Below, piece after piece: positions 43,568 through 51,727 of a DNA stretch of 64,000 bases. The stretch is from the NCBI GenBank assembly GCA_016872355.1, contig VGZY01000006.1:1-64000 (forward strand), in the 5' to 3' direction. The notes under the pieces are model-generated. The model was not told the origin of the DNA and ran no database searches. It worked only from the letters and a program-made list of their open reading frames with translations. Position 1 is the stretch's first letter, and the number at the start of each line of letters is the position of its first letter. The position numbers and the translations under genes were made by a program. The stretch comes from SAR202 cluster bacterium (GTDB lineage: Bacteria; Chloroflexota; Dehalococcoidia; Lucifugimonadales; VGZY01).

Positions 43568-43671
43568 ACCGACGGTCTGAACACCGCCGCCGTTCCTTGC
43601 GACATGCACGGTTCGCAAATATAATCACAGCCGTGCGGCCCAATGAAGCCGCGTTTGCCCAATGGAGAGCT

Positions 43672-45486
43672 ATGCCCCAGCCCACCCTCGACGAGCAATT
43701 CAGCGACGGTATTCCATCCCGCGGCTACCGCAGCCCGCAGCAGTTCATGTCCGCGAAGGAGCAGCGCTACGTCCTTTACGGGCTCTTGAAAGGGTGGACC
43801 GTCACCAAGATAGGGAGGAGCATAGGGGTCAGCGACCTCGTTGTGAGGCAGATCAGGGCGCGTGTGACCAGGACTCCGGAAACGCTGCTTGATCTGGGCA
43901 TCTGCGAGGCGCTGCTTCTGACTACGGGGCCGGCCTTCCGATGCCTCGTGTGCGGCTCGATGCTGACCAGTGAGGAAGAGGTGAGGAGTCACGTCCCGGC
44001 CCACTTCATGGAGGTGTTCCAGACCAGCCGGCGCGCCGACGAGGATATCGCGCAGACCGAGGCGACCGTCAAGCGCGCACCCGGGGTCTCGGGCCGCCCC
44101 AGGAACGACGGTCCGGACTCGGACCATTCGTGGGCGGCGGCTTTTGAGCGGCTTGCGGCGATGCGGGATGCGCAGGCCCCCGCGTCGGTGGAGGCGCCAA
44201 GGGCAATTGACGCCGCGGTCCCGCTGCCGGCACACCAGTCGCATACTGCCCCAGCGATTGCAGCTGTAGATCCGGCCCAGCCCACGCAGGCCCGTCAACA
44301 GCCCCAACAAGACTTGCCGCTGCCAACGACCGCAGCGCTCTACGTAGAGTCGGCGACGCCGCCACGGCGGCCGGTTGTGGAGCCTGCAGTTGAGACCCGG
44401 ACCGTCGCTGCCCATCCAGTGGCGGAGGCGGGCGCCCCGGCTACAGCGGTCCCGGTTGAGAGACCGGCGACGGCTATTGCGCCCGTGATCGAAGCTCCTG
44501 TCCCGCCTGCCTCCCCGCCGCAGCTCGAGGTCCCGGCTGCGACCAAGGCCGAGGCGCCGGCGAGGGCGCCACGCCCGCCGACGGCAGCTCCCGGCGCGAC
44601 CGGCAAGGCGGTGGCGGCGCTAACCATAGAGCGCGGGGCCGTCAAGATGCTGGTCTACCGCAACGGCGCGGTAGTCGACTTCGGGCAGGCTGATTGCCCC
44701 GGCAGCATGTTCAAGGGATCGCTCGCAAGCGACACAAATGGCGTTGCCTCCGCCCTGGCGAAGCTCGCGCCGATGGCAAAAGGCAAGGGCACCACGCTCG
44801 TCGCTGCCGCGCCGGGATACCAGTCGAAAGTGAACCATATCACTCTACCGAAGGCGAACGGCATGAATCCTGCCGTGGTCATACCGCAGATCGCGCGGCG
44901 AACGCTAGGCATTTCGCCCGAGACCTCACGCATTGCATGGAAGAAGCAGGCATCTTCCCTTGAGGAAAACCATTGGGCTGTTGTCTCCACAACCTCGCGC
45001 TCGCTAGCATCTCTGACGGCGACCGTACGGGGCGCCGGTTTTCGGTTGAGCGCAGTAGAGCTTCGGGCGTTCGCAATGGCCAGGGCGACGGGGCAGTCGA
45101 GCGCTGTTTGCGCGTGGACGGCGGCGGACGGCATGGAAGTGATCGTTGTGAGGGACTGGACCCCGGTAACCTGCGTTTCCCACTTCTGGGGCGCCGAGGC
45201 CGAGATGGACGGCCAGAGCATAGTCAATCATGTCCTGGAAGTGATTGAGAGCGTGATAGAGTCTGATGACGGTCGCCTGCACGAAGGCCAGCCCGCCTGG
45301 GACCTGCCCGTGTACCTCACCGGTTCGCCTGTCCAGAAAGCGCCGGGTATGGTAGACGCCGTCGCGAAGCTCCTCGGGCGCGGTGTTTCCGCGCCCGTTC
45401 CGCCGGTGAACACGCCTCCGGGTTTCCCCCTCCACGACTACTTCGTGAACCTTGGCCTGGCGATGGGGCCGGCGGCCAGGGGTTAA
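43672..45486 (+). CDS. HTH / C2H2-finger / PilM-like actin-fold protein
   Basis: 604 residues from ATG 43672, with GGAG five bases upstream. Residues about 41-65 (GWTVTKIGRSIGVSDLVVRQ) form an HTH. Residues 91-111 fit C2H2 spacing exactly: C91-x2-C94-x12-H107-x3-H111. A Pro/Ala-rich linker (about 150-320) follows. The last 280 residues start with GKAVAALTIERGAVKMLVYRNG and look like the PilM/FtsA-type actin fold, with VNHITLPKANGMNPAVVIPQIARR and NHVLEVIESVIESDD. PilM is a type IV pilus inner-membrane assembly protein; no other pilus gene is nearby. The role is unknown. Confidence 0.7.
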   Translation: MPQPTLDEQFSDGIPSRGYRSPQQFMSAKEQRYVLYGLLKGWTVTKIGRSIGVSDLVVRQIRARVTRTPETLLDLGICEALLLTTGPAFRCLVCGSMLTSEEEVRSHVPAHFMEVFQTSRRADEDIAQTEATVKRAPGVSGRPRNDGPDSDHSWAAAFERLAAMRDAQAPASVEAPRAIDAAVPLPAHQSHTAPAIAAVDPAQPTQARQQPQQDLPLPTTAALYVESATPPRRPVVEPAVETRTVAAHPVAEAGAPATAVPVERPATAIAPVIEAPVPPASPPQLEVPAATKAEAPARAPRPPTAAPGATGKAVAALTIERGAVKMLVYRNGAVVDFGQADCPGSMFKGSLASDTNGVASALAKLAPMAKGKGTTLVAAAPGYQSKVNHITLPKANGMNPAVVIPQIARRTLGISPETSRIAWKKQASSLEENHWAVVSTTSRSLASLTATVRGAGFRLSAVELRAFAMARATGQSSAVCAWTAADGMEVIVVRDWTPVTCVSHFWGAEAEMDGQSIVNHVLEVIESVIESDDGRLHEGQPAWDLPVYLTGSPVQKAPGMVDAVAKLLGRGVSAPVPPVNTPPGFPLHDYFVNLGLAMGPAARG

Positions 45487-46088
45487 CGCGCTGTTTGCTT
45501 CGCAGCGCCGGTATTCCCCCATTTCCGTCTCCGTCTCAGCACCACCAGACTGGCTGTTGTCAGCACCAGCGCTGCAATCGCGGCCGCTCCGATAACCCAG
45601 GGGAAAACGTCTCGGTCTTCACGGACGATTGGAAGGAGCGCCTCAACAGTGCCAGGCCCAAGCGGGCCCTCGAACGCGGCGCGAATTCGCCAGTCGCCGT
45701 GCCGGGGGAGGGTAAGGCTAACGTTGTAGTGGCTGGCATCGGCCGCGAGGGACGTAACCACCATGGGACCGATGTCTGGTGATGACCGTGAAGGGCTGAC
45801 GGCGGTGAGTCTCATGGTCGTCGGTACGGCCACCAGCCGGGCCGTCTCCGGGCCGTTTTCGGAGACGTACGCTTCAACCAGAATGGTGACGCGCACAACC
45901 CCCGGCCGCGGGTCCGGCGGGTTGACGGAGACGGTGACGGCGTACGCGCCCACGCGGTCCTGCGCAATGACGGGGCCGCCGTTTGCTGCGGCAGGGCGGC
46001 CCACTGCAAATGCCGCCAGGACCAGGGCTGCCGCCGCCGCGAGTGCGCGGATGGCGCGGTTGAGGTAGGTGTGACGAAGGGTTTGCAA
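45483..46088 (-). CDS. Exported YtkA/FixH-like beta-sandwich protein, membrane-anchored
   Basis: 201 residues from TTG 46088, preceded by AAGGAAGCGGG. A signal peptide ends in PAAA before N36 (NGGPVIAQDRVGAYAV). A beta-rich domain (about 36-165) with the HGDWRIRAAFEGPLGPGTVEALLPI strand is followed by a C-terminal helix (VIGAAAIAALVLTTASLVVL) and basic tail. This layout equals that of the gene at 46588, 47158. It is divergent from the His-rich gene and convergent (4-bp overlap) with the PilM-like gene. Related YtkA domains are linked with copper handling, inferred here. Confidence 0.75.
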   Translation of the reverse strand: MQTLRHTYLNRAIRALAAAAALVLAAFAVGRPAAANGGPVIAQDRVGAYAVTVSVNPPDPRPGVVRVTILVEAYVSENGPETARLVAVPTTMRLTAVSPSRSSPDIGPMVVTSLAADASHYNVSLTLPRHGDWRIRAAFEGPLGPGTVEALLPIVREDRDVFPWVIGAAAIAALVLTTASLVVLRRRRKWGNTGAAKQTAR

Positions 46089-46099
46089 GCCCGCTTCCT

Positions 46100-46128
46100 T
46101 TGAACTATCGTCCGGATGTGGATATAAT
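46100..46128 (+). promoter_or_regulatory. Consensus promoter for a leaderless transcript
   Basis: TTGAAC (46100-46105), a 17-bp spacer and a perfect TATAAT (46123-46128). The expected start lies 7-8 bases after the -10, which is the ATG at 46136, so the mRNA would have no leader and the gene has no Shine-Dalgarno. Confidence 0.7.
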
Positions 46129-46135
46129 ATACCAG

Positions 46136-46531
46136 ATGAATCGATTCGCACTGCCCCTACTTGTCTGGGCACTCGTGGTCTCGGTCATGTTCCCATCGAT
46201 CGGGCCGCTGGTGGACCACCATTTCGCCGAGCGCCAGCTCGGCCACATCCACTTGGGCCACACGACCTACCACGTTCACTACGCCGATCTTGCCCACTCC
46301 CATGACCATTCTCACGGCGACGGCGGTCATGAGCAGCAACCTCAGTCGGCCACTACCCTGTACAGTTACGAGTCGGGCGCCCTTGGAAGCATCGTTTCCA
46401 TAACTGAGGACCTGGGCCTGGCGTCGTTCCTTCTGTTCGACCCCGCCTCCATATTCACGCTGCCGGGCAACGGCAGTCTCAACCTCGTCCCAGTCTATCT
46501 GAGTCCTCCGGACGATCCGCCGCGCGCCTGA
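46136..46531 (+). CDS. Exported histidine-rich protein (putative metal binder)
   Basis: 131 residues. A short hydrophobic N terminus (about 4-24) is followed by a stretch with twelve His in about 42 residues (DHHFAERQLGHIHLGH, YHVHYADLAHSHDHSH), then a Ser/Gly-rich tail ending in a Pro/Asp segment. His-rich stretches bind Cu, Zn, Ni or Co. There is no Shine-Dalgarno and the promoter puts the transcript start at the ATG. It is the first plus-strand gene of the cluster ending in the CopCD-cytochrome fusion and the polytopic protein, 56 bp before the first sandwich gene. Confidence 0.75.
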   Translation: MNRFALPLLVWALVVSVMFPSIGPLVDHHFAERQLGHIHLGHTTYHVHYADLAHSHDHSHGDGGHEQQPQSATTLYSYESGALGSIVSITEDLGLASFLLFDPASIFTLPGNGSLNLVPVYLSPPDDPPRA

Positions 46532-46587
46532 GTCCTCATCATCCGGCGCCCCGTCCCATCTATTTGAGTCCCGAGAGAGTCAAACCA

Positions 46588-47139
46588 ATGCGAACCCGAT
46601 TGGGCGTAGCTGCGACACTTGCAGTCGCCCTGGTCGCCGCCGTCGCCGTCCCGGCGGTGGTGCTTGCGAACGGCCGAGTCGTCGATTTCGAGCGCAAGGC
46701 CGCAGGTCCCTACGAGGTGGCCCTTGGCACCATCCCGGCCGACCCGTCTGTGGGCAACCTGCACCTGACGATGACCGTTACAGACAGTGCGACACGGTCC
46801 ATAGTCACAGACGCCGATATCACCATTACCGGCGCCGGGCCGGACGCGACAGCGGTCGAGATCGGGCCGCTCAGGGCGGAGCACGACATCCGCGACCCGT
46901 CTTACTACGACGTGGCAACGGCGGTAGACCGCGAGGGCGAGTGGCGATTTACCGTCGCAGTTGCCGGGCCGGCCGGGCAGGGATCAGCTGAGTACTCCGT
47001 GAAGGTCAAGAATGCGAGCCCACTAGCGGGACTGGTCACCCTGGGAATGCTCGTAGGGTTCGTAGCCATTTTCGCTCTCGCTATCCGCGCGTCCCTCTCG
47101 TCAAAGTCGCGGAAAAGCAATCCAAAACCCAAAAGCTGA
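46588..47139 (+). CDS. Exported beta-sandwich protein, membrane-anchored
   Basis: 183 residues from ATG 46588. A signal peptide ends VVLA before N28 (NGRVVDFERKAAGPYEVALG). A beta domain (about 28-140) ends in EGEWRFTVAVAGPAGQGSAEYSV, then a C-terminal helix LAGLVTLGMLVGFVAIFALAI and a basic tail. It resembles the divergent 45483-46088 product in plan and in the 'G.WR..' strand. Likely a YtkA/FixH-like domain protein. Part of the same cluster as the CopCD fusion. Confidence 0.75.
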   Translation: MRTRLGVAATLAVALVAAVAVPAVVLANGRVVDFERKAAGPYEVALGTIPADPSVGNLHLTMTVTDSATRSIVTDADITITGAGPDATAVEIGPLRAEHDIRDPSYYDVATAVDREGEWRFTVAVAGPAGQGSAEYSVKVKNASPLAGLVTLGMLVGFVAIFALAIRASLSSKSRKSNPKPKS

Positions 47140-47157
47140 AACAAGGAGAACAAGACT

Positions 47158-47832
47158 ATGAAGAAGCTTCCCATGTTGGTGGTAGCTCTCGGTGTCCTTA
47201 TCGCATCGGCGGGCTTGACCGTCCTGGGGGCGGGGATAGCGTCCGCCCATGCCAGCAAGGACATCGGCAAGTACCGCCTGACCGTTGGATTCATTGTGGA
47301 GCCAGCCTACGAAGGTATCAAGAACGGAATCGACCTGCGCGTCCGGGACATCTCGGTTGACCCGCCCACGAACGTCACCGGCGTTGAGCAGACCATCAAG
47401 GTTGAGCTCATCCATGTCCCGAGCGGCACGCACAGGGTCTTCGACCTGCGGACCATCTACAAAGACCCCGGCCACTACACCGCGGACCTCATGCCCACGG
47501 CGTCCGGGGTGTACCGAATGCGCTTCTTCGGCCACATTGGCGAGGGCGCGGACCGCGTCGAGATCAACGAGACCTTCGCCTCGAGGGGTGAGGGCGGCGG
47601 GTTCAATGACATGCAGTCGTCCGCCGATCTGCAGTTCCCTGTGAACCTAACCGAGGTGCGCGAGGTGGAGAGCGTTGTGCGCGGCGTCCAGGGCGACGTA
47701 GCCTCGGCCCAGGACGCGGCGATCGAGGCGAAGGACGCGGCAAACTCCGCGAACACTATGGCGATCATCGGGATCGTTATGGGCGCCATCGGCATCATCG
47801 TCGGCGCTGTGGCGTTCGGTCTGAAACGGTAG
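47158..47832 (+). CDS. Exported protein with N-terminal His after signal cleavage, coiled coil and C-terminal helix
   Basis: 224 residues with AAGGAG before the ATG. The signal ends IASA and the mature protein would start at H31 (HASKDIGKYRLTVGF). A beta-rich domain with GVYRMRFFGHIG is followed by an acidic/alanine coiled coil (about 170-200: VRGVQGDVASAQDAAIEAKD) and a helix near the C terminus. H31 matches the site of the mature N-terminal His in CopC. It overlaps no neighbour and lies 26 bp before the CopCD fusion. Function unknown. Confidence 0.75.
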   Translation: MKKLPMLVVALGVLIASAGLTVLGAGIASAHASKDIGKYRLTVGFIVEPAYEGIKNGIDLRVRDISVDPPTNVTGVEQTIKVELIHVPSGTHRVFDLRTIYKDPGHYTADLMPTASGVYRMRFFGHIGEGADRVEINETFASRGEGGGFNDMQSSADLQFPVNLTEVREVESVVRGVQGDVASAQDAAIEAKDAANSANTMAIIGIVMGAIGIIVGAVAFGLKR

Positions 47833-47857
47833 GCCATCCCACTTCCGAGGTTATCTG

Positions 47858-50158
47858 TTGGCAATCGGAAGACAAAGAATAGTAGTTTTCATTCTCGCCC
47901 TCATGGCGGCGGCGTGGGCCTTCGCGCCGATTGCGGCTGGCGGCGCCGCCGCCCATGCGGGCTTCGTGCGATCTGCCCCGGTGGCGGAGTCAGCCCTGGA
48001 CCAGCCCCCGGCGCGTGTCACGATATGGTTCACCGAGCCTCTGGACCGCGACTACAGCCGCATCGAGGTGCTGAACGCGCTGGGAGGCCGAGTAGACAAC
48101 GGCGACACGACGGTGGACCCCTCGGACGCGACTGCCATGTCAGTGACGCTCAGGCCGCTGGCCAACGGTACATATACGGTCGCGTGGCGCAACCTCTCGA
48201 CCGTGGACGGCCACAGCGTTCGCGGGTCATACGTCTTTTCCGTCGGGGAGCTAGTCGCGGAGCAGCCGGTCGCGGCGCCGGATGAGCCCCTGATTCAATC
48301 GCCCGCAGAGCCTTTCTTACGCTGGGGCGTGCTCCTGGGCATTATGGCGATAGTCGGAGGCGCCGGATTCTCCGCGCTCGTCACAGCGCCGGCACTGCTG
48401 GGCACTAAGTCGCCGCAGCGGATGCGGCGGCTAGGGCGGTTATTGCTGGACCGCACAACTGCGCTGGTCTGGGCCGGTGTCTTCTTGTTGCTGGTGTCCT
48501 CCGTTGCGCAGCTCCTCGTACAGGCCGGCAACGCACGGGACGTATCGCCCCTCGCCGCCCTGTTCGGCCCTGCTTTCTCGTTCGCGGCAGGAACCGAGTG
48601 GGGTAACAACTGGCTTCTCCGCGTCGTCTTCGTTTGCGGAATAGCGGTTGCGCTGGCCGCAACCGGCCGGCTGCCTTTTGTGATGCGGTCGCCGACCACC
48701 TCGAAGGCTGCCTCTGCGGACCGTGAAGGACTTGGCCGGCTGGCTGTGCTGCTCCTGGGCGCCGGCGTGCTCATGACGATAAGCCGCACGAGCCACGCGG
48801 CCGCGACCGCCGGCATCTCCGGCCCCGCGATCGCAACGGACTACATACACCTTGTCGCTTCGGCGCTGTGGGTCGGCGGTCTCTTTCACTTCGCGCTTGC
48901 CGCACACGCCATATTGCGGGACATGCAGGGCCAGAACCGCCGGGCGGCTGTGTCGGCGATGATGCCGCGCTTCTCCGCGATTGCTGTCCTGGCGACCGGG
49001 ACGCTGATCATCACCGGTCTTTACAGCGCGTGGGCTCAGGTGACGGTCATCCCGGCGCTCCAGGCCCCATACGGTCTCACCCTCGTAGCCAAAGTGGCCC
49101 TCGTGGCAGGAATGCTGGCGCTTGGGGCGCTGAACCTGCTCTGGGTGCGGCCCCGGCTCAAACGGGACGACGGCGCACCGGGCCTTCTACGCCGGGCCGT
49201 AATGGCAGAGGCGGCCATAGGCGTCGTCGTCCTCATCTCCGTGGGTTTTCTGACGAGCCTGGAGCCAGCCCGGCAGGTCGCGTCCCGGGAGGGGCTCGGC
49301 GGCCCCGGCAGCCTAAAATACCGGGAGACCGTGGAAGGCACGGCGATAGACATTGAGGTCGGGCCGGGCAGGGTGGGCAGGAACACCGTTGCTGTGCGGC
49401 TTGCCGACACGCTGGGCAACCCGGTGGACAACGCGTCTCTTGTCAACGTGCGGGTGGCATATCCGGGCGCGGACCTGGGTGAAGAGTTCGCGCAGGCCCG
49501 CAACGCCGGCGGCGGAGAATACGTGCTGGACGGGCGAATTATCAGCATCGCCGGCGCGTGGCAGGTCGAGGTCGAGGTAGTCCGGCCAGGCGCATTCGAC
49601 GCCCGCACGGCATACGGATTCGAGATTTCGGCGGGGTCAACCGCCGGAGGCAGCGCCGAGATAACGCCGGACCCGGAGACCGGCGTGGCCCTGTTCGGAC
49701 TGGAGCTGATCGGGCTGGGCGTCCTGTTCCTTGTCGTTGGCCTACCCCTCGGCGGCTGGTACTCAAAGACCGGAGTCGCCGTCATGGGGCCGGGCATCGC
49801 CTCGTTCATGGTGGGCGCGGTGATGCTCTTCAACACGCAGTTTGCAGCATCTCCTGAGGCGTTGCCGGAGAAGAACCCCATTGCGCCTTCGGCGGAGTCC
49901 ATCGCGGCCGGGCGCGCAATATACACGCGCAATTGCCTGATTTGCCACGGCGAGTCCGGACGGGGAGACGGCCCACAGGCCGCGCTGCTGAATCCTCCGC
50001 CCCTGGACCTTACCGTGCACGTGCCGCTTCACCCGGAAAGGGACGTCTTCCGATTCATACACGACGGGATGCCAGGCACTGCGATGGTCGGATTCGGCGA
50101 CCAGTTGACGGACGAGGAGATCTGGCATGTCGTCAACTACATCAAGACACTCGATTAG
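47858..50158 (+). CDS. CopC-CopD fusion with YtkA-like domain and C-terminal cytochrome c
   Basis: 766 residues, TTG start with GAGG upstream. CopC begins after the signal at H33 (AAHAGFVRSAPVAES), and the second copper-type motif VDGHSVRGSYVF has H119; CopC binds Cu(II) in the periplasm with the N-terminal His. Residues about 150-470 are CopD-like with several helices and HLVASALWVGGLFHF. A beta-sandwich section (about 500-610) like YtkA/FixH follows, then one or two helices. The end is a cytochrome c with CLICH at 693-697, GRGDGP and the Met ligand in GMPGTAMVGFG. Copper import or redox transfer is probable. Four-domain fusions of this kind are not something I have seen described. Confidence 0.9.
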   Translation: MAIGRQRIVVFILALMAAAWAFAPIAAGGAAAHAGFVRSAPVAESALDQPPARVTIWFTEPLDRDYSRIEVLNALGGRVDNGDTTVDPSDATAMSVTLRPLANGTYTVAWRNLSTVDGHSVRGSYVFSVGELVAEQPVAAPDEPLIQSPAEPFLRWGVLLGIMAIVGGAGFSALVTAPALLGTKSPQRMRRLGRLLLDRTTALVWAGVFLLLVSSVAQLLVQAGNARDVSPLAALFGPAFSFAAGTEWGNNWLLRVVFVCGIAVALAATGRLPFVMRSPTTSKAASADREGLGRLAVLLLGAGVLMTISRTSHAAATAGISGPAIATDYIHLVASALWVGGLFHFALAAHAILRDMQGQNRRAAVSAMMPRFSAIAVLATGTLIITGLYSAWAQVTVIPALQAPYGLTLVAKVALVAGMLALGALNLLWVRPRLKRDDGAPGLLRRAVMAEAAIGVVVLISVGFLTSLEPARQVASREGLGGPGSLKYRETVEGTAIDIEVGPGRVGRNTVAVRLADTLGNPVDNASLVNVRVAYPGADLGEEFAQARNAGGGEYVLDGRIISIAGAWQVEVEVVRPGAFDARTAYGFEISAGSTAGGSAEITPDPETGVALFGLELIGLGVLFLVVGLPLGGWYSKTGVAVMGPGIASFMVGAVMLFNTQFAASPEALPEKNPIAPSAESIAAGRAIYTRNCLICHGESGRGDGPQAALLNPPPLDLTVHVPLHPERDVFRFIHDGMPGTAMVGFGDQLTDEEIWHVVNYIKTLD

Positions 50159-50173
50159 CTAAAGAGGCACGCT

Positions 50174-51727
50174 ATGGCCCGCCAAAGTGTTCGCACCAGT
50201 CTGATATTCGCAGCCGCACTCTCAGGCGCGGCGCTGGCGCTAATGGTATCCGCCGCGAGCGCCCACGGCTTTGGCGACAGGTACGACCTGCCCATTCCGC
50301 TCAACTACTTCATGGTTGGCGCAGCGGCCGCGGTTGCGGCGTCGTTCGTCGTAATCGGCCTCTTCGTTAACGCCACGCCGGGGAAGTTCAACTACCCCAG
50401 GTACAACCTGCTCCGGGCTCCGGTTATCGGTGCGTTGATATCCAGCACAGTGACGCTGAATATCGTCCGCATAATCGCCGTGGGGCTATTTGCGCTCACG
50501 CTGGCGACGGCGCTCTTCGGATCGGGCAGGCCACTGGACAATTTCGCGCCCACCTGGGTGTGGATCATTTGGTGGGTGGGGATGGGCTACGTCTCAGCGC
50601 TGGTCGGTAATCTTTGGTGGCTCGTAAACCCATGGAAAATCGTGTACGAATGGGTATCCGTGCTCCTGGACCCGGACGGGGAGAGCGACGAGGGGCTCTT
50701 CGACTACCCGGAGTGGTTGGACGTATGGCCGGCGTTCGCGCTCTTCTTCGCGTTCGCCTGGCTGGAGAACGTCTACACGAGCTCCGCGCTGCCCTTCAAG
50801 CTGGGCGTGCTGATACTTGCGTACTCCGCAATAACCTGGGGCGGCATGGTAGCGTTCGGGAAGCGCCGGTGGCTCACGCATGGCGAGGCGTTCACCGTGC
50901 TGTTCGGCTACTTCGCGCGGTTCGCGCCAACCGAGGTCAGAAACACCGACCCGCGCTACTGCGGGAAGTGCTCGCAGGAGTGCAATATCGACCATGAGGG
51001 GTGCGTGGACTGCTTCGAGTGCTTCGACCGGGCGCGCGCATCCGACCGGCAACTCAATCTGCGCCCCTACGCGGTGGGCCTGGTGCACTACAAGAGCGTG
51101 ACGGCCGGCGCGGCGGCTTTTGTCCTGCTCGCGCTGGCGACCGTTACCTACGACGGCCTGTCGGAGACCGGCATCTGGCTGGACTTTCAGAACCTCGTCT
51201 ACCCGGCGTTCTCCTGGCTCGGCTCAAGCTCCAGACCGGCGATCAACACCTTCGGCCTCATCGCAATCCCTCTGCTCTTCGCCGCGCTCTACGTGCTCTT
51301 TTCGCAAGCTATGAAGGCGGCGTCAGGCGACTCCGCGCCGGTGTCCGAGTTCGTCAGGATATTCGTCTTCTCGCTCATACCCATCGCCCTGGCGTACAAC
51401 ATGGCCCACTTCTTTTCGCTGCTGCTGTTCGAGGGGCAGGCCGTCATCCCGCTGGCATCCGACCCGTTCGGGCAGGGGTGGAACCTGTTTGGGACGGCTG
51501 ACTATCGCATCAAGCGCGGCTTCCTAACAGCCAAAATCGTCTGGTTCGTCTCAATCGGGGCGATCGTTCTGGGCCACATTCTGTCCGTCTTCATCGCACA
51601 CGTCATATCGCTGAAACGGTTTGCGTCGCGCCAGAGCGCAATGAAGAGCCAGTACCCCATGCTGGCGCTGATAGTGCTATATACGGCCGCCAGCCTCTGG
51701 ATACTGGCCCAGCCGATAGTGCAGTAG
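50174..51727 (+). CDS. Polytopic membrane protein with six-cysteine loop and mature N-terminal His
   Basis: 517 residues with about twelve hydrophobic helices. Signal ends AASA and the mature start is H31 (HGFGDRYDLPIPLNYF), a motif I know from uncharacterised proteins beside Cu/cytochrome genes. Between helices (about 255-285) lies YCGKCSQECNIDHEGC and then VDCFECFDR: C-x2-C-x3-C-x6-C-x2-C-x2-C. This could bind an iron-sulfur cluster or zinc/copper. Two charged helices flank it. It is the last plus-strand gene, 15 bp after the CopCD-cytochrome fusion, so a joint function in metal or electron transport is likely. Confidence 0.75.
   Translation: MARQSVRTSLIFAAALSGAALALMVSAASAHGFGDRYDLPIPLNYFMVGAAAAVAASFVVIGLFVNATPGKFNYPRYNLLRAPVIGALISSTVTLNIVRIIAVGLFALTLATALFGSGRPLDNFAPTWVWIIWWVGMGYVSALVGNLWWLVNPWKIVYEWVSVLLDPDGESDEGLFDYPEWLDVWPAFALFFAFAWLENVYTSSALPFKLGVLILAYSAITWGGMVAFGKRRWLTHGEAFTVLFGYFARFAPTEVRNTDPRYCGKCSQECNIDHEGCVDCFECFDRARASDRQLNLRPYAVGLVHYKSVTAGAAAFVLLALATVTYDGLSETGIWLDFQNLVYPAFSWLGSSSRPAINTFGLIAIPLLFAALYVLFSQAMKAASGDSAPVSEFVRIFVFSLIPIALAYNMAHFFSLLLFEGQAVIPLASDPFGQGWNLFGTADYRIKRGFLTAKIVWFVSIGAIVLGHILSVFIAHVISLKRFASRQSAMKSQYPMLALIVLYTAASLWILAQPIVQ

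Follow-up and report, generated by a model that had tools for sequence, protein, structure and literature searches.

A plus-strand gene set in a SAR202 cluster bacterium combines a YcnJ-type protein fused to cytochrome c with an unnamed membrane protein family and probably serves copper supply

The 64,000-nucleotide stretch of SAR202 cluster bacterium DNA analysed here (contig VGZY01000006.1, positions 1 to 64,000; hereafter, the window) carries a tight plus-strand gene set, P2–P6 (46136-51727). We suggest that this set is a surface copper-acquisition and delivery operon serving a haem-copper (cytochrome c) oxidase, a reading which we consider probable. All six open reading frames of the study, P1–P6, were confirmed to be present in the window, as follows.

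45483-46172, minus strand: P1, a P3 paralogue, divergent from P2–P6 across about 56 bp
46100..46128, plus strand: sigma-70-like promoter TTGAAC-17-TATAAT, 7 bp 5′ of the P2 start
46136..46531, plus strand: P2, exported His-rich protein, candidate extracytoplasmic copper/zinc-binding protein
46564..47139, plus strand: P3, signal peptide, YtkA-like beta-sandwich, C-terminal helix
47158..47832, plus strand: P4, signal peptide, YtkA-related beta-sandwich, Ala-rich stretch, C-terminal helix
47858..50158, plus strand: P5, CopC-CopD-YtkA-like-cytochrome c fusion (YcnJ type plus cytochrome)
50174..51727, plus strand: P6, polytopic membrane protein with N-terminus HGxGxRxDLPxP and, in this lineage, a Cys-rich loop

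When the longest open reading frames are taken, the gaps between P2 and P3, P3 and P4, P4 and P5, and P5 and P6 measure 32, 18, 25, and 15 bp. No terminator-like site lies in these gaps, the matches being only within P5, within P6, or 5′ of P2; the five plus-strand genes are close together, as the first-pass annotation had stated. The preferred start of P2 is the ATG at 46136, and its 7-bp distance from the promoter would fit a leaderless transcript. Two promoter-like sites were found against 1.1 expected, so the P2 site is weak evidence by itself. The flanking genes outside the set encode an NAD(P) transhydrogenase beta subunit and, on the minus strand, a lipoprotein without assignment. Upstream of P1, at 43597-45486 on the plus strand, is a 629-residue protein with no Pfam or NCBIfam match above the cut-off.

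Family profiles were run over about 85 loci, in which the genes of the relatives were called from open reading frames. The loci were selected by matches to P4, P5, or P6, and the counts from them are conditional on that selection. Relatives of all five proteins P2–P6 co-occur in Dehalococcoidia, and partly in other Chloroflexota. Since the arrangement recurs in other genomes, it is not due to chance. It had been proposed from the window that all six families act as a set; recurrence across Chloroflexota supports this for P2–P6 and leaves out P1, the P3 paralogue (28% identity, E=1e-8). A P3-type gene divergent beside P2 was seen in no locus read other than the window, and P1 is probably a lineage-specific copy of P3 outside the conserved set.

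The conserved linkage takes the form of two modules. Module A is P2, P3 (YtkA-like), a cupredoxin-like lipoprotein with an HxHGYD motif, and P6, with P2 often, not always, in front; module B is P2, P4, and P5. Module B stands alone in many genomes (e.g. loci L078, L086, L092, L096, and L099), and module A occupies genomes of the order without P5. P4 was found in 36 of the 147 genomes of the order, and in 20 order loci chosen mainly by P4, P5 directly follows P4 in all but three or so (L082 ends at a contig edge; L087 and L088 lack P5). In the 20 loci chosen by P6, P3 is present in 19, and the cupredoxin gene is beside P6 in 18. The cupredoxin–P6 pair also occurs in other classes (L032-L042), in Acidimicrobiales (L052-L054), in Variovorax (L115), and in Mycobacterium (L116). 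This distribution ties P6 first to P3 and the cupredoxin-like protein, and second to P5. Both modules are together in L077, including the cupredoxin gene; in the window, they are together without it, and P4 and P5 occupy its usual place. The window set is a merger of two conserved modules, not one fixed six-gene unit.

P2 has the histidine pattern DHHFAERQPxHxHL...HxHxYE...HxH, and its profile gives 32 matches, nearly always as the first gene of module A or B. The match of P3 to Pfam YtkA (PF13115) is below threshold (18.2 bits vs the curated cut-off of 25.9), and 5 of the 14 members of its family likewise give a sub-threshold match. On profile comparison, P4 is distantly related to P3 (hhalign 96-97%); window P4 itself does not match PF13115, and 2 of 16 P4 relatives match YtkA at E<0.01. 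The predicted signal cleavage of P4 (AxA-H) would leave an N-terminal His, which is invariant in 32 of 32 members. An AlphaFold model of P4 from the single sequence was unusable (pLDDT 43). YtkA (CtaK) proteins are described assembly factors for oxidase CuA (PMC13344008, PMC9145763). P3 and, distantly, P4 share with the lipoprotein CtaK (PMC9145763) the YtkA-like superfamily and anchoring outside the membrane. However, a C-terminal helix replaces the lipid anchor in P3 and P4, their scores are under the Pfam cut-off, and the invariant mature N-terminal His of P4 is not a feature of CtaK.

P5 matches three Pfam families above the cut-off, CopC (E=1e-19), CopD (7e-21), and cytochrome c (2e-12). 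Pfam gives no direct match for the part between CopD and cytochrome c, which does match the P3 family profile (hhalign 94%). Thus, the four-part fusion noted in the first-pass annotation is present, with the order CopC-CopD-YtkA in one polypeptide, the YtkA-like part being recognized by the profile match to P3 only. In an alignment of 33 P5 homologues longer than 700 residues, the following are conserved in 33/33: H33, E60, D117, and H119 in CopC; H313 and H331 in CopD; and C693, C696, and H697 (CxxCH), H721, H725, and M743 in the cytochrome. P5 has the histidine-brace pattern of CopC, with a mature N-terminal His, an Asp, and a second His; the cleavage before H33 was judged by eye.

The closest described protein is YcnJ of the Bacillus subtilis ycnKJI operon, a copper importer supporting the haem-copper oxidases Qox and Cta (PMC12362106, PMC13344008). 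Its CopC histidine brace (H24, H110) and CopD H295 are required for growth at limiting copper, and in CuA assembly the roles of its YtkA domain and of CtaK overlap (PMC12362106, PMC13344008). P5 and YcnJ have in common the order of the CopC, CopD, and YtkA-like parts and the His/Asp ligand pattern of CopC; the invariant CopD residues H313 and H331 of P5 may include a counterpart of YcnJ H295. P5 differs from YcnJ in two further helices and the C-terminal cytochrome c. The window set also differs from ycnKJI in that ycnI (DUF1775) and ycnK had no match among the neighbouring proteins scanned with Pfam and NCBIfam, whereas P2, P4, and P6 are without counterpart in ycnKJI. The invariant CopC, CopD, and haem ligands of P5, the precedent of YcnJ, and the recurrence of P2, P4, and P5 together argue for copper supply.

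Besides import, CopD proteins can also act in resistance. Is the operon then a means of binding and sequestering excess copper at the cell surface, like the classical CopC/CopD of copABCD? CopC, CopD, and His-rich proteins do occur in resistance operons, and the 14-member P3 profile finds a PDB entry named ‘Copper resistance protein’ (9ll2, E=1.3e-4). However, the set is without genes for the CopA multicopper oxidase, CopB, CusABC, or CopRS, the nearest architecture, that of YcnJ, serves copper acquisition (PMC12362106), and relatives of the set are linked to COX and CtaG genes and to a CopA-type ATPase gene. We therefore regard resistance as distinctly unlikely, and prefer copper supply.

P5 matches at E<=0.001 were found in 123 of the 245 genomes of the class, and near-full-length matches including the cytochrome in about 40 of the 245, by manual count of the listing. 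The closest solved relatives of the P5 cytochrome are cytochromes c552 (7o9u, 9vr0), and the HxxxH pair is common to both. Four P5 homologues (L095, L099, L100, and L101) have no cytochrome, which indicates that it is not essential to the importer. An 873-residue homologue (L096:9098-11719) has two haem motifs, from a doubled cytochrome c domain. Missing in four and doubled in one, the cytochrome is seen to be an added module. No description of a CopC-CopD-cytochrome c fusion was found in the part of the open-licence literature examined. In the work on YcnJ, the copper route through CopC/CopD importers, and reduction en route, are stated as open (PMC12362106). P5 would be a single protein in which to ask whether copper is reduced during CopC/CopD import, and a redox step is suggested by the natural importer–cytochrome c fusion, which about 40 of the sampled genomes retain. 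Since P5 is a YcnJ-type protein plus a cytochrome c, the simplest reading is that import or CuA loading involves such a step.

What is the function of P6? Nothing in Pfam, NCBIfam, or the PDB sequences matches it, and for family members of Mycobacterium, Variovorax, Neorhizobium, and a haloarchaeon neither Pfam nor NCBIfam gave a match. H31, H412, H468, H476, E198, and D327 are kept in 52-53 of 54 proteins; the Cys-rich loop of window P6 is kept only in Dehalococcoidia and one other family. P6 was found in 102 of the 147 genomes of the order (about 70%) and, across the phylum, in 51 of 201 genomes when weak matches are counted. Relatives are present in Acidimicrobiales, and plasmid-borne ones in haloarchaea, rhizobia, Mycobacterium, and Variovorax. 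P6 resembles Caa3_CtaG and CtiP, a CtaG-CopD fusion of Corynebacterium (PMC9145763), in being polytopic with conserved His and in its linkage to CopC/CopD and oxidase assembly; CtaG often adjoins P6. However, P6 has no profile similarity to CtaG, CopD, or COX1. As a CtaG relative, it was rejected on the absence of a PF09678 match in Pfam and an hhalign value of 0.1%, and a relationship to CopD or COX1, as well as internal duplication, on the absence of profile similarity. Nor is a histidine brace proposed for P6: H31 lies behind an AxA site in this lineage, but in other members, which have no signal peptide there, the same His is about 10 residues into the protein. Support was not found for ‘fenitrothion hydrolase’ as a frequent annotation of P6 homologues. 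An AlphaFold model from a 4-row alignment was unusable (pLDDT 40). The neighbours and the invariant His of P6 suggest that it may be a membrane copper transporter or insertase. It is a candidate oxidase-biogenesis factor, named in neither Pfam nor NCBIfam, yet widespread in the order and present in other phyla.

The four invariant His of P6 could bind haem instead of copper, and the cytochrome fused to P5 has intact haem ligands. These would fit an electron-transfer or redox-sensing assembly, in which cytochrome c, the cupredoxin-like protein, and P6 form a respiratory side branch and copper is structural or carries electrons and is not transported. However, the cupredoxin-like partner is without a type 1 Cys ligand, having only HxHGYD and a later His, and the CopC/CopD ligands of P5 are those of an importer. 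We find such an assembly very unlikely compared with copper delivery.

The genes found beside P6 elsewhere are those for CtaG, COX1/COX2, CopC/CopD, a CopA-type ATPase, and a copper monooxygenase. In L119, the P2, P3, cupredoxin, and P6 genes are followed on the same strand, after 2.1 kb, by COX2-cytochrome c, COX1, COX3, and CtaG, and in L120 and its relative L121, module A is on one strand with CtaG, COX2, COX1, and COX3. A CtaG gene is present in 13 of 58 P6 loci, and in L132 a CopA-type ATPase with HMA domains adjoins P3–P6. These neighbours argue for supply of an oxidase. A DsbD/CcdA-type gene adjoins P6 in 4 loci. Most P5 and P6 loci have no oxidase gene within the stretch read.

On a plasmid of Mycobacterium dioxanotrophicus, a cupredoxin–P6 pair (L116:6468-8395) directly precedes the CAB operon of a copper monooxygenase; the two proteins are candidate accessory factors that would load this enzyme with copper. 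The copper might thus be meant for another cuproenzyme, such as an N-oxide reductase, a monooxygenase, or a multicopper oxidase, in which case the oxidase linkage would be incidental, and P6 does occur in archaea and rhizobia in other contexts. Within Chloroflexota, however, the enzyme genes that recur nearby are those of COX and CtaG, and we consider another client unlikely. COX2 is present in 136 of the 147 genomes of the order, and the window genome has its own (C85). That frequency and the monooxygenase linkage are in keeping with copper supply; co-occurrence with COX2 is non-discriminating as a test, because COX2 is near-universal in the order. Together, the invariant ligand residues and neighbouring genes support, at the level of sequence, the copper/redox envelope function first proposed. 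The set was also called undescribed. For the open-licence literature, this applies to the set as a whole, P6, P4, and the cytochrome fusion, and fails for the core of P5, a variant of the described YcnJ, and for YtkA (CtaK).

For oxidase supply, we infer a route that covers copper binding, transport direction, a redox step, the client enzyme, and what P6 does. Outside the membrane, copper would be bound by P2, which is rich in His, and by P3 and P4 as anchored beta-sandwich proteins. P5 would take Cu(II) with its CopC domain and pass it to the CopD membrane domain for import; alternatively, P5 may hand copper sideways to oxidase assembly through its YtkA-like domain. The C-terminal cytochrome c would exchange an electron, most simply to convert Cu(II) to Cu(I) so that the copper can be transported or loaded into CuA. 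P6, paired elsewhere with the HxHGYD lipoprotein, would supply the same oxidase as a copper transporter or insertase in the membrane. It is doubtful, as a joint proposal, that P6 and its HxHGYD partner represent a new type of such transporters or insertases and that the P5 cytochrome is a built-in copper reductase during import.

In four of the loci, an in-frame TGA splits the gene of a peroxiredoxin-like lipoprotein within the copper module, at the catalytic site (FYRGFF-TGA-GICRNQL).

L077:7107-7673, minus strand: TGA-split peroxiredoxin-like gene
L080:6829-7431, minus strand: TGA-split peroxiredoxin-like gene
L083:10416-11000, plus strand: TGA-split peroxiredoxin-like gene
L084:10114-10758, plus strand: TGA-split peroxiredoxin-like gene

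This lipoprotein is a candidate selenoprotein. SelB is complete in three of the four genomes with the TGA gene and present as fragments in the fourth.
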